Below are positions 5,450 to 15,112 of a stretch of 61,837 nt of DNA, piece by piece (within the stretch, counting starts at the first letter, position 1; each line of letters starts with the position of its first letter). The DNA is from Alphaproteobacteria bacterium. Lineage in GTDB: Bacteria; Pseudomonadota; Alphaproteobacteria; Acetobacterales; Acetobacteraceae. A program made the position numbers and the translations under genes. The notes beneath the pieces are model-generated. The model did not search any database and was not told the DNA's origin. It saw only the letters and a list, made by a program, of their open reading frames with translations. The stretch covers positions 1-61,837 of the forward strand of contig VGDL01000015.1 in NCBI GenBank assembly GCA_016869735.1, read 5' to 3'.

Positions 5450-5574
5450 TGGGGTGGCGCCTTTGCTGTAACCCTGGCGGCGCGGGCGCCGCCATGGCAG
5501 GATCAGTAAAGCGCGAAAAGTCCAAAAATCAAATGACCGCAAGCTTTTTTGGTGGCATCACTCAAAATTGAGAA

Positions 5575-5597
5575 GGCTCCCCAGAATCAGGGAAGCC
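5575..5597 (-). terminator. Terminator hairpin after the hyi-glxR pair
   Basis: Read on the minus strand, GGCTTCCC, loop TGATTCT, GGGGAGCC (8-bp stem with one G-T pair), followed by TTCTCAATTTTGAG. It lies 24 bases past the end of the tartronate semialdehyde reductase gene. It is a plausible factor-independent terminator with a weak T-tail. Confidence 0.45.
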
Positions 5598-5620
5598 CGC
5601 CCCCAAGCCAAAAACCTGCC

Positions 5621-6505
5621 TCAGGCGTCCGGCGCCACGGGATGCGCGGCGAGCGTCTCAAGCGCCTTGACCAGGCCGGAATGGTCCAAGTCTGCCCCGC
5701 CAGCCGCTGCGACGGCGGCGAAAAGCTGCTGGGTGGACGCCGTATTGGGGAGTGCAACGCCCAATTCGCGGCCCGCTTGCAGGGCCAGGTTCAAATCCTT
5801 CTGGTGCAGGCGGATGCGGAAACCGGGCGCAAAGGTCCGCTTGATCATGCGTTCCCCATGCAGTTCCAGAATGCGCGAGGTGGCGAGCCCGCCGGTGATC
5901 GCTTGCCGCACCTTGGCCGGATCAGCCCCCGCCTTGGAGGCGAAGGTCAGCGCTTCCGCCACTGCTTCAATGGTCAGCGCCACAATGATCTGATTGGCGA
6001 CCTTGCAGGTCTGCCCTGCGCCAACGCCGCCGACCAAGGTGATATTCTTGCCCATAGCTTCAAACAGCGGCTTGGCGCGCCCAAAAGCGGCATCTGAGCC
6101 ACCGACCATGATCGTCAGGCTGGCCTGCTTGGCGCCGACTTCCCCGCCCGAGACCGGGGCATCGAGGTAATCGCCACCCTTGGCCGCGATCTTGGCCGCG
6201 AATTCCTTGGTGGCGGTCGGGCTGATGGAGGACATATCAATCACCAGCGTGCCGGGCTTGAGGCCCTCAGCCACGCCGCCCGCACCGAACAGCACGGCTT
6301 CCACGTCGGGGGTATCCGGCACCATCAGGATCACGGCTTCCGCCCCGGCGGTGGCGGTTTTGGCATCAGGCGCCACGGCAAAGGCCGCACGGTCCTCGGC
6401 GGTCAGGCTTTTGCGCTCCACCACCGTGATGGCGTGGCCGGCGTTCTTCAGGTGGCCGGCCATGGGGCGGCCCATGATGCCAAGGCCGATAAAGGCGATT
6501 TTCAT
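5621..6505 (-). CDS. glxR: 2-hydroxy-3-oxopropionate (tartronate semialdehyde) reductase
   Basis: A 294-residue beta-hydroxyacid dehydrogenase that reduces tartronate semialdehyde to D-glycerate in glyoxylate use. The NAD(P) site GLGIMGRPMAGHL is at residues 7-19, the substrate loop is DAPVSGGEVGAKQASLT near 115, and the catalytic lysine is in GAGQTCKVANQ near 171. The length matches GarR/GlxR. It follows the hydroxypyruvate isomerase gene by six bases, the classical pairing that supports this name over other family members. The glyoxylate carboligase that usually completes the route is not in the window. Confidence 0.9.
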   Translation of the reverse strand: MKIAFIGLGIMGRPMAGHLKNAGHAITVVERKSLTAEDRAAFAVAPDAKTATAGAEAVILMVPDTPDVEAVLFGAGGVAEGLKPGTLVIDMSSISPTATKEFAAKIAAKGGDYLDAPVSGGEVGAKQASLTIMVGGSDAAFGRAKPLFEAMGKNITLVGGVGAGQTCKVANQIIVALTIEAVAEALTFASKAGADPAKVRQAITGGLATSRILELHGERMIKRTFAPGFRIRLHQKDLNLALQAGRELGVALPNTASTQQLFAAVAAAGGADLDHSGLVKALETLAAHPVAPDA

Positions 6506-12948: not shown

Positions 12949-13042
12949 CGCCCGCGCCGCATGCTCGCTTCGGTTGGTCCACCATCGGCCCCGCCATAAC
13001 TAAAGCTTGACCTTGGCCCCGCGCAGCGGAAGAGATGTGAAC

Positions 13043-13903
13043 ATGGGTTTTCGTCGTCTTTTGCCGATTCTGAGCATCCTTCTGCTGGGGGCACCGGCCT
13101 TTGGACAATCAAGCCTTGGCGGGGCGCAGAATGTGCCGCCGGCACGCCAGGCAGCACCCGCGCCGCCTCAGCGGCCTGAAGCGCGCCCGCCGGTGGTGAA
13201 CCCGCCGGCAAGGCCGCAAGCGACGCAACGCAACACCCAAGGTCAGCAGCAGCAGCGTCCTGCCGGGCAACCGCAGCAGCGCCAGGCAGGCCAGCAACAA
13301 CGCCCCGCCGGACAACCGCAGGCCAGTCAGGGCAATCGCGCTGCCGCCGGTGCCGCCGCAGGTGTCGTTGCCGGCGCCGCTGCCGGCGCTGCTGCCACCG
13401 CTGACGCTGCCAAGCCGCCCGAGCCCACGCCCGCGCCTCCGCCAGCCGAACGCGCCCCCAACACTGGTTCGGTCACTGGCCTGCCGCTGCCGCGCTTTGC
13501 CGCGCTCCGTTCCGATGAGGTGAATATGCGGAGCGGCCCAGGCACGCGCTTTCCGATTGAATGGACTTATCAGCGCCGCGAATTGCCGGTAGAAATTGTG
13601 CGCGAATTCGAATTATGGCGCCGCATCCGCGACCCGGAAGGCACTGAAGGCTGGGTGCATCAATCAACCCTGATGGGCCGGCGTTCCTTTGTGGTGCGAG
13701 GCGCCCCTGGGTCTGAGGTCATGCTCCGCCGCCGGGCAGAGGATCAGGCCCAGCCCATCGCACGGCTTCGCCCCGGCGTGGTCGGAAGGCTTCGCGCCTG
13801 TGAGACCAATAACCCCTGGTGTGAGGCGCAGATCGGTGAGTTTCGGGGCCATATCAAGCGCGCCGATATCTGGGGCGTGGGGCCAACCGAGGAAGTGAAA
13901 TAA
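13043..13903 (+). CDS. Secreted SH3-domain protein with Pro/Gln-rich linker
   Basis: A 286-residue exported protein. The signal peptide is at residues 1-22 (RRLLPILSILLLGAPAFG). Residues about 30-130 are low-complexity Pro/Gln/Ala, with the unit RPAGQPQ repeated, and then an alanine-rich stretch (GAAAGVVAGAAAGAAA). The C-terminal ~135 residues hold a bacterial SH3 fold of the SH3b/DUF1058 type: LRSDEVNMRSGPGTRFPIEW and a second half with LWRRIRDPEGTEGWVHQS. Such domains are thought to bind cell-wall peptides. ATG 13043 starts the signal peptide; an earlier in-frame start would bury it. It lies 42 bases upstream of the nitrile hydratase-like cluster; a link is not evident. Confidence 0.8.
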   Translation: MGFRRLLPILSILLLGAPAFGQSSLGGAQNVPPARQAAPAPPQRPEARPPVVNPPARPQATQRNTQGQQQQRPAGQPQQRQAGQQQRPAGQPQASQGNRAAAGAAAGVVAGAAAGAAATADAAKPPEPTPAPPPAERAPNTGSVTGLPLPRFAALRSDEVNMRSGPGTRFPIEWTYQRRELPVEIVREFELWRRIRDPEGTEGWVHQSTLMGRRSFVVRGAPGSEVMLRRRAEDQAQPIARLRPGVVGRLRACETNNPWCEAQIGEFRGHIKRADIWGVGPTEEVK

Positions 13904-13945: not shown

Positions 13946-14239
13946 ATGACCGAGGAATCACCCAACCGCGCGCTGCACGATATTGGCGGAATCGCGCGCT
14001 TCCGCTGCACGCCCGTTGAGCATGATGAGGCGCCGCCCGATGCCTTCGGCAAGAAGGTGGATGCCATTCGGCAAATCCTGGCGCAGAAGAAGATGATGAC
14101 GGTGGATGAACTCCGCCGCGGCATCGAAAGCATCCCTGAGGATGAGTATTTCGCGCTTGGCTATTACGAACGTTGGCTGCATTCGATTGCGGCGCTGATG
14201 GTCGAAAAAGGCGTGATCAGGCAGGAGGATTTGGCATGA
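13946..14239 (+). CDS. Nitrile hydratase/thiocyanate hydrolase beta chain, N-terminal half as a separate subunit
   Basis: 97 residues matching the N-terminal domain of the nitrile hydratase beta subunit: the start LHDIGGIARF resembles the family's HDLGG motif, and MTVDELRRGIESIPEDEYFA with YYERWLHSIAALMVEKGVI matches the helical domain that caps the active site of the alpha chain. The protein ends where the C-terminal barrel domain would begin; that domain is a separate gene overlapping by four bases (ATGA). Such a split occurs in thiocyanate hydrolase (ScnB plus ScnA) and in three-subunit nitrile hydratases such as toyocamycin NHase. It is shorter than ScnB, so the three-subunit NHase comparison is closer in size. 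Confidence 0.85.
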   Translation: MTEESPNRALHDIGGIARFRCTPVEHDEAPPDAFGKKVDAIRQILAQKKMMTVDELRRGIESIPEDEYFALGYYERWLHSIAALMVEKGVIRQEDLA

Positions 14240-14529
14240 GCACTGATCCTCGGTTTGCGCCTGGTGCGCGGGTGCGCGTGAAGGATGATTGGCCCGAAAC
14301 CCGTGGCCCCTGCCATATCCGTACGCCGCATTATGTGCGTGGGCGCACGGGCCAGGTGGTGCGCCCGCTGGGTGCTTTCCCGAACCCGGAAGATTTGGCC
14401 TTCGCCCGCCCAGCGCCGCGCCGGCAGCTTTACCATGTGCTGTTCGAACAGCCGCCCATTTGGGACGAAGGCAAGGCGGGCGATACGGTGATGGTGGAAA
14501 TCTTCGAACATTGGCTGGAGGAAGCCTGA
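14236..14529 (+). CDS. Nitrile hydratase/thiocyanate hydrolase beta chain, C-terminal half as a separate subunit
   Basis: 97 residues equivalent to the SH3-like barrel C-terminal domain of the nitrile hydratase beta subunit. The motifs are FAPGARVRVKDDWPETRGPC, HIRTPHYVRGRTGQVV and the end YHVLFEQPPIWDEGK. This domain packs against the alpha chain and helps shape the substrate channel. ATG 14236 overlaps the upstream stop, so translation is coupled and equimolar production is likely. The alpha-type gene begins two bases after its stop. The order N-half, C-half, alpha is that of scnB-scnA-scnC. Confidence 0.85.
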   Translation: MSTDPRFAPGARVRVKDDWPETRGPCHIRTPHYVRGRTGQVVRPLGAFPNPEDLAFARPAPRRQLYHVLFEQPPIWDEGKAGDTVMVEIFEHWLEEA

Positions 14530-14530
14530 C

Positions 14531-15112
14531 ATGGCCGCCCCCCCTTCTGGCGCGAGCCTCGCGCTGCTCGAAAAACTGGTTGCCGCCCTTTCCACGAAGG
14601 GGCTGGTAACGGAAGCCGAAATCACCGAACGTCAGGCGATCACGGATCGCGCGAGCCCTGAGATCGGTGCGCGCATGGTGGCGCGTGCTTGGACCGATCC
14701 CGAATATTACGCGCTGCTGATGCGTGATGGTAAGGCGGCCGCTGAGGCGATGGGCGCATCCATGGCTGGCGCGCCGGAGCTTGGCGTTTTGGAAAACACG
14801 CCAAAGCAGCATCATCTGGTGGTTTGCACGCTATGTTCCTGCTACCCCCGCGCGCTGCTGGGCTATCCGCCGGGCTGGTACAAATCCTTCGCTTATCGGT
14901 CACGCGCCGTGCGTGAACCGCGCGCCGTGCTGGCCGAATGGGGCACGCCAATGGCCGATGATGTGGAAATCCGCGTGGTGGATAGCACCGCGGATTATCG
15001 CTGGATGGTGCTGCCGATGCGGCCCGCCGGGACCGAGGGGTGGAGTGCTGAGAAGCTTGCTTCCATCATTACGCGGGATGCGCTGGTTGGGGTGGCGGTG
15101 CCGCGGGTGTGA
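14531..15112 (+). CDS. Nitrile hydratase alpha / thiocyanate hydrolase gamma subunit
   Basis: 193-residue metal-binding catalytic subunit. The claw motif CTLCSCYP (about residues 98-105) supplies the three cysteines that bind non-corrin cobalt or iron; a Thr after the first Cys is usual for the cobalt type. Other family blocks are PPGWYKSFAYRSRAVREPR, IRVVDSTADYRWMVLP and RPAGTEGWSAEKLASIITRD. The residue after CYP is Arg, where most nitrile hydratases have Trp; from memory, an Arg at this site is one of two that set thiocyanate selectivity in thiocyanate hydrolase. No activator or metallochaperone gene is adjacent. Substrate (nitrile, thiocyanate or other) is undetermined. Confidence 0.88.
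   Translation: MAAPPSGASLALLEKLVAALSTKGLVTEAEITERQAITDRASPEIGARMVARAWTDPEYYALLMRDGKAAAEAMGASMAGAPELGVLENTPKQHHLVVCTLCSCYPRALLGYPPGWYKSFAYRSRAVREPRAVLAEWGTPMADDVEIRVVDSTADYRWMVLPMRPAGTEGWSAEKLASIITRDALVGVAVPRV

Follow-up and report, generated by a model that had tools for sequence, protein, structure and literature searches.

A conserved three-gene locus predicted to encode a compact three-subunit enzyme of the nitrile hydratase family

Which enzyme is encoded when the beta chain of a nitrile hydratase (NHase) is carried by two very small genes? The question is raised by three adjacent genes of an Acetobacteraceae bacterium (assembly GCA_016869735.1), analysed here within the window, the whole 61,837-nucleotide stretch of contig VGDL01000015.1. 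A sequence-only reading had taken their products of 97, 97 and 193 residues as the N-terminal half of NHase beta (beta-N), its C-terminal half (beta-C) and a CTLCSC metal subunit (alpha). Profile searches bore this out, with all three Pfam domains over cut-off. The features of this trio and of the gene preceding it are:

13007..13903, plus strand: gene for an SH3_4-domain protein with a Q/P/A-rich N-terminal part (PF06347, 4.3e-25)
13946..14239, plus strand: beta-N subunit gene (NHase beta N-terminal half), 97 aa (PF21006 NHase_beta_N, 1.3e-16, over cut-off)
14111..14116, plus strand: beta-N L56, at the place of R90 in thiocyanate hydrolase (SCNase) beta, and R57, a conserved arginine (SCNase R91, P. 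putida R52), from alignments
14126..14128, plus strand: beta-N E61 (P. putida E56, SCNase N95), from alignments
14223..14228, plus strand: AGGAGG, Shine-Dalgarno-like, 7 bases 5' of the beta-C ATG, from the sequence
14236..14529, plus strand: beta-C subunit gene (NHase beta C-terminal half, SH3-like), 97 aa (PF02211 NHase_beta_C, 5.1e-18, over cut-off)
14314..14322, plus strand: beta-C H27 to R29, R29 being the conserved second arginine (H and R in 109/109 trio rows and 29/29 other three-gene rows)
14517..14522, plus strand: GGAGGA, Shine-Dalgarno-like, 8 bases 5' of the alpha ATG, from the sequence
14531..15112, plus strand: alpha (metal) subunit gene, 193 aa (PF02979 NHase_alpha, 7.2e-74, over cut-off)
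14825..14842, plus strand: CTLCSC metal motif, alpha residues 99-104, from the sequence (invariant in 46 aligned trio alphas)
14849..14851, plus strand: alpha R107, at the place of SCNase gamma R136 and of P. thermophila NHase alpha W116 (alignments; PDB mutants 3vyg, 3vyh)

The genes had been described as tightly overlapping, which is true of the beta-N/beta-C junction, where an ATGA is shared between different frames, and not of the beta-C/alpha junction, where one base separates the two. Computed masses of the chains are 20.83, 11.09 and 11.17 kDa, and the cysteines of CTLCSC are the only three in alpha. No sigma-70-type promoters or terminators above chance were found at the locus.

Different frames joined by a four-base overlap are also what a frameshifted, ordinary two-subunit NHase would present, so we examined how far the split extends. 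Among the 35 genomes of the window's genus, an NHase alpha was present in all and a beta-C match in 34; the exception (G018) has a trio-like alpha match that is cut short at its start. The trio locus was inspected in 21 of these genomes, the window's own included, and the beta halves lay in separate frames in every one. Scanning GTDB genome contigs with ten trio alphas gave 336 relatives, and in the best 80 of these, beta-N was found in 77, beta-C in 78 and alpha in 80, with the parts present always in separate frames; the three incomplete loci are on contigs that start inside the trio. These relatives come from Roseomonas, Neoroseomonas, Plastoroseomonas, Falsiroseomonas, Siccirubricoccus, Belnapia, Caldovatus, Rubritepida, Roseococcus and others. 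In the window, beta-C is provided with an ATG and a ribosome-binding sequence of its own, and there is no counterpart to the linker of about 38 residues that joins the two halves in P. putida beta (beta-N match ending at 90, beta-C match beginning at 129). Against four relatives (L104, L110, L111 and L120), dN/dS was 0.011-0.043 for beta-N, 0.060-0.082 for beta-C and 0.075-0.133 for alpha; the trio is thus under purifying selection. An artefact would need one error repeated across all these genomes, from many assemblies, in a locus whose alpha falls outside the two-subunit NHases (see below). We therefore rejected it, its probability being practically negligible, and regard the beta chain as truly encoded by two genes.

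To place the trio within the family, we scored alpha against the NCBI equivalog models. It narrowly failed the cut-off for NHase alpha (TIGR01323, 239.8 bits against 249.85) and failed that for SCNase gamma (TIGR03887, 194.9 bits against 291.45). A locus from another genome of the same bacterial family (L078, genome G252) passed the latter at 375.8 bits. At class level, a match to the SCNase model occurred in 103 of 289 genomes and the cut-off was passed in none. In two maximum-likelihood trees of alpha (72 and 57 rows), the two-subunit rows and the PDB NHases fell together on one side of a branch with 100/99 support, with the trio not among them, and the trio alphas formed a clade of their own (100/100), as expected from the proposal that they are a distinct subgroup. 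In the second tree, a plasmid locus of Agrobacterium rubi joined the trio clade on a long branch, its position being unsure. SCNase (2dd4) paired with L078. The SCNase row had different neighbours in the two trees, and bootstrap support in the first of them had yet to stabilize. Approximately unbiased (AU) tests rejected neither the grouping of the trio with two-subunit NHases (P = 0.456) nor that with SCNase and L078 (P = 0.385). The trio alphas are thus a fully supported clade outside the two-subunit NHases, with both deep orders compatible with the data. An AlphaFold2 model of alpha, made with an alignment, had a pLDDT of 82.8, falling to 55-58 at residues of about 101-120, and matched NHase alpha and SCNase gamma chains; Fe-type NHases were among the best PDB matches. 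Membership of the NHase/SCNase family, part of the original reading, was upheld by the CXLCSC motif, the two conserved beta arginines and the NHase alpha fold, all of which were found.

We then compared the pocket residues that differ between NHase and SCNase. SCNase gamma reads CTLCSCYPR, with R136 where the window has R107, and PDB entries include mutants at this place (3vyg, SCNase R136W; 3vyh, NHase W116R). Among 177 classified loci, picked by search rank as the best trio relatives, the best SCNase-model matches and the best NHase-alpha matches, arginine or lysine occupied this place in all 134 with the order beta-N, beta-C, alpha (128 R, 6 K; the trio part is redundant, its 111 rows holding 80 distinct alphas). 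Arginine was also found in the single locus with the order beta-C, alpha, beta-N and in 19 of 19 beta-N/alpha fusions, whereas 17 of 17 alpha-first loci had tryptophan; six loci with an undetected subunit (4 R, 2 W) were left out of this tally. On the beta side, SCNase R90, R91 and N95 correspond to F51, R52 and E56 of P. putida NHase and to L56, R57 and E61 of the window. The L56 place held L in 98, M in 9 and Q in 1 of 108 trio rows, while the R57 and E61 places held R and E in all 108. In 28 other three-gene rows, the combination of SCNase R90 and N95 occurred only in L078; lysine stood at the R90 place in L080 and in two of four named plasmid loci (described below). No trio row examined (108-111 rows, redundant) departed from the metal motif, from either beta arginine, from E61 or from H27. 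The trio pocket is thus mixed, SCNase-like on its alpha side and NHase-like on its beta side.

These residues bear directly on whether the trio is a thiocyanate hydrolase, turning thiocyanate into carbonyl sulfide and ammonia. The gene order had been put forward as that of thiocyanate hydrolase, and it is indeed shared with the SCNase-like L078; other three-gene loci have it too. R107 likewise matches SCNase gamma R136, yet since arginine or lysine is present in all 134 loci of this order, the residue does not single out SCNase. L078, from the same bacterial family, has both SCNase beta residues as well as both SCNase pocket arginines and passes the TIGR03887 cut-off, whereas the window has L56 and E61 at the two beta places and its alpha fails that cut-off. 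With one of the two pocket arginines missing and the cut-off failed, an identity as thiocyanate hydrolase is not supported, and we consider this activity quite improbable. ScnABC of Thiobacillus thioparus (PDB 2dd4) further differs in having larger chains, of 157, 126 and 243 residues.

The three-gene split is not rare in the NHase family. All three parts were found in 19 of 20 class-level loci taken as best SCNase-model matches, and three-gene loci are carried on plasmids of A. rubi, Rhizobium sp. WYJ-E13, Streptomyces sp. NBC_01176 and Planktothrix agardhii, where they are annotated as nitrile hydratase alpha with small genes for an 'SH3-like domain-containing protein' or 'nitrile hydratase'. 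Like the window, these four have separate beta-N, beta-C and alpha genes, and all four read CTLCSCYPR; unlike the window, their alpha N-termini bear His (read by eye). Nickel/cobalt transport or Cbt genes lie near two of the four, an aquaporin gene near two and an amidase gene near one, while none of these is immediately beside the window trio. The amidase gene is that of A. rubi, whose three-gene locus lies directly behind it, a neighbour that fits an amide product.

Among characterized enzymes, the closest in build is the toyocamycin NHase ToyJKL of Streptomyces rimosus, an (alpha beta gamma)2 heterohexamer with chains of 21.2, 10 and 11.4 kDa in the excerpt of PMC8574189. The likeness is one of published masses, which are nearly equal to the window's, and no toyocamycin context is known for the window trio. 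These proteins had been taken to be near the minimal size, but such smallness has a precedent in the toyocamycin chains of that excerpt; what the trio lacks is a His-rich alpha tail. Two-subunit Co- and Fe-type NHases (3qxe, 1ire, 1ahj) have the metal motif, conserved arginines, E61, H27 and fold in common with the window, but have an intact beta with its linker, W in place of R107 and a TIGR03889 activator, and the trio lies outside their clade.

Taken together, the trio is a conserved three-subunit member of the NHase family, and in build most likely a toyocamycin-type nitrile hydratase; we favour, with modest confidence, a heterotrimeric metalloenzyme predicted to use Co(III) and to hydrate a nitrile. 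Three NHase domains over cut-off, retained catalytic residues and the modelled alpha fold point to this reading, as do the L/M and E of NHase type in beta-N, purifying selection and genus-wide conservation of alpha and beta-C. The masses given for toyocamycin NHase in the PMC8574189 excerpt and the amidase neighbour in A. rubi are consistent with it. The assembly would probably be (alpha, beta-N, beta-C)2, as in toyocamycin NHase. Alpha would hold one metal, Co(III) as predicted from CTLCSC, through C99, C102 and C104, of which two may be oxidized, to a sulfinate and a sulfenate. Beta-N R57 and beta-C R29 would hold the oxidized-cysteine oxygens, and water would be added across the carbon-nitrogen triple bond to yield an amide. 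Alpha R107 beside the NHase-like beta-N L56 and E61 suggests a small polar or negatively charged nitrile as the likely substrate. Several observations run against nitrile hydration: the TIGR01323 cut-off was narrowly failed, no amidase gene adjoins the window trio, R107 is the residue of SCNase and the A. rubi placement is unsure. Metal loading, too, seems to lack an explanation, with neither a TIGR03889 activator in the genome nor a His-rich tail.

The missing tail and activator would also suit an enzyme of other chemistry, or one with a dedicated endogenous substrate other than a free nitrile pool, such as cyanide, cyanamide, cyano-amino acids or a cyano-nucleobase, or even a non-catalytic metal role. 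The trio is conserved in the genus and no nitrile genes are linked to it, a pattern more in line with a housekeeping function than with opportunistic use of nitriles, and the AU tests do not settle the deep place of the clade. The catalytic residues and fold are nevertheless those of NHase, and no positive evidence favours any particular other substrate, so we hold such a role to be unlikely, if worth bearing in mind.

The NHase reading leaves the question of how the metal is loaded. The NHase activator model TIGR03889 was matched in 7 of 7 two-subunit control genomes and in 0 of 11 trio-bearing genomes of the genus, the window's own included. It was also unmatched in the one genome with an SCNase-like locus, so the model may be blind to activators of the SCNase type (P15K). 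Judged by proteins of the TIGR03889 type, the trio thus seems to be without the usual NHase activator. By a crude rule, of at least 5 His per 25 residues beside a domain, a His-rich stretch accompanied 26 of the 29 alphas from other three-gene loci and 13 of the 19 from alpha-first loci (leaving 3 and 6, respectively, without one), compared with 0 of 110 trio loci. The A. rubi alpha, in the trio clade, does have such a stretch when read by eye, and the missing tail therefore belongs to the Roseomonas-type loci. Cobalt is a tentative assignment, made from the threonine of CTLCSC (the motif is CSLCSC in the Fe-type 1ahj and CTLCSC in Co types), as Fe-type NHases also rank with the best PDB matches.

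Excerpts of PMC3511329 describe NHase activators as small proteins weakly similar to NHase beta, and the window beta-N itself matched TIGR03889 weakly (E = 0.0053, 16.7 of 46 bits). The window's genome also holds a second NHase, a 337-residue protein on contig C16 (30480-31490, minus strand; 5478-6491, minus strand, in locus L006), which consists of beta-N, a His/Asp-rich tract and alpha, with no beta-C; the only beta-C match in this genome is that of the trio. Such fusions were found in 19 of 35 genus genomes, and 8 of 200 family genomes, among them the window's own, encode one in full. The NHase fusions with a His-rich linker reported in the excerpts of PMC2603476 and PMC3323583 are eukaryotic, and the Monosiga fusion has complete subunits. 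In one genome (G079), the fusion is the only alpha, and around the single beta-C (L203, 1504-1800) the trio has decayed, beta-N giving no match and alpha being reduced to a 19-bit scrap. This beta-C frame is open, with a dN/dS of 0.16-0.17 against two relatives, compared with 0.06 between those relatives. The genome is thus one suggestive case, short of a demonstration, for the fusion using the beta-C of a trio; the higher dN/dS indicates that constraint may already be relaxed, which counts against such sharing. One could imagine that the beta split is itself a maturation device, in which free beta-N would act as a self-subunit-swapping, metal-loading chaperone as well as a structural subunit, with the fusion, in genomes that have one, borrowing the trio's beta-C. 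A beta-N with both roles would make a separate activator unnecessary, but we regard this scheme as doubtful.

Gene neighbourhoods could be expected to carry clues to the substrate. Neither an amidase nor an activator gene lies beside the window trio, and the only conserved neighbour is the SH3_4 gene, directly upstream of beta-N in 59 of the 77 relatives with a beta-N (best 80 of 336); the association observed is one of position. Next to the trio, rsmI, LppC and sensor-kinase genes are seen in close relatives only. Beyond the SH3 gene, an amidohydrolase-like gene is likewise confined to close relatives, and an ABC transporter gene takes that place in the window; no full set of the window's peptide-type ABC transporter genes lay beside the trio in the best 80 of 336 relatives. 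With none but the SH3_4 gene conserved beyond close relatives, neighbours were set aside as a guide to the substrate. In many relatives, the contig starts some 0.5 kb 5' of beta-N, in or near the SH3_4 gene. An rRNA operon was rejected as the cause, as no rRNA was found in the seven loci searched; the Q/P/A-rich repeat of this gene probably breaks assemblies there.

What is new here is the combination of a mixed pocket, no recognized activator and no His tail, whereas the three-subunit kind and its small size were already known. Our search of the open-licence PMC literature returned no paper on nitrile hydratase in Roseomonas and, by title or abstract start among the matches listed, none on this group, which is weak evidence of novelty. 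Three-gene members of the family look common, yet annotation disperses them under 'SH3-like domain-containing protein' and nitrile hydratase alpha. The trio offers a compact, conserved lineage for testing which residues part nitrile hydration from thiocyanate hydrolysis, and could be used to test whether a free beta-N domain can replace an activator. A small enzyme that matures with no accessory gene, if that is what the trio encodes, may be of interest for biocatalysis.

Some observations concern other loci of the survey. An aquaporin gene lies directly 3' of the three-gene NHase in L209 (4991-5878, Streptomyces) and L211 (4874-5638, Rhizobium), and nickel/cobalt transporter or Cbt genes come next. 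In L080 and L211 the genes run beta-C, alpha, beta-N (the order of Rhizobium sp. WYJ-E13), and lysine takes the position of SCNase beta R90. Lastly, L055, L057, L060, L061, L063 and L068 are alpha-first NHases reading CTLCSCYPW, with beta-N and beta-C in different frames; in these, the beta split may have arisen a second time, or there may be frameshifts.
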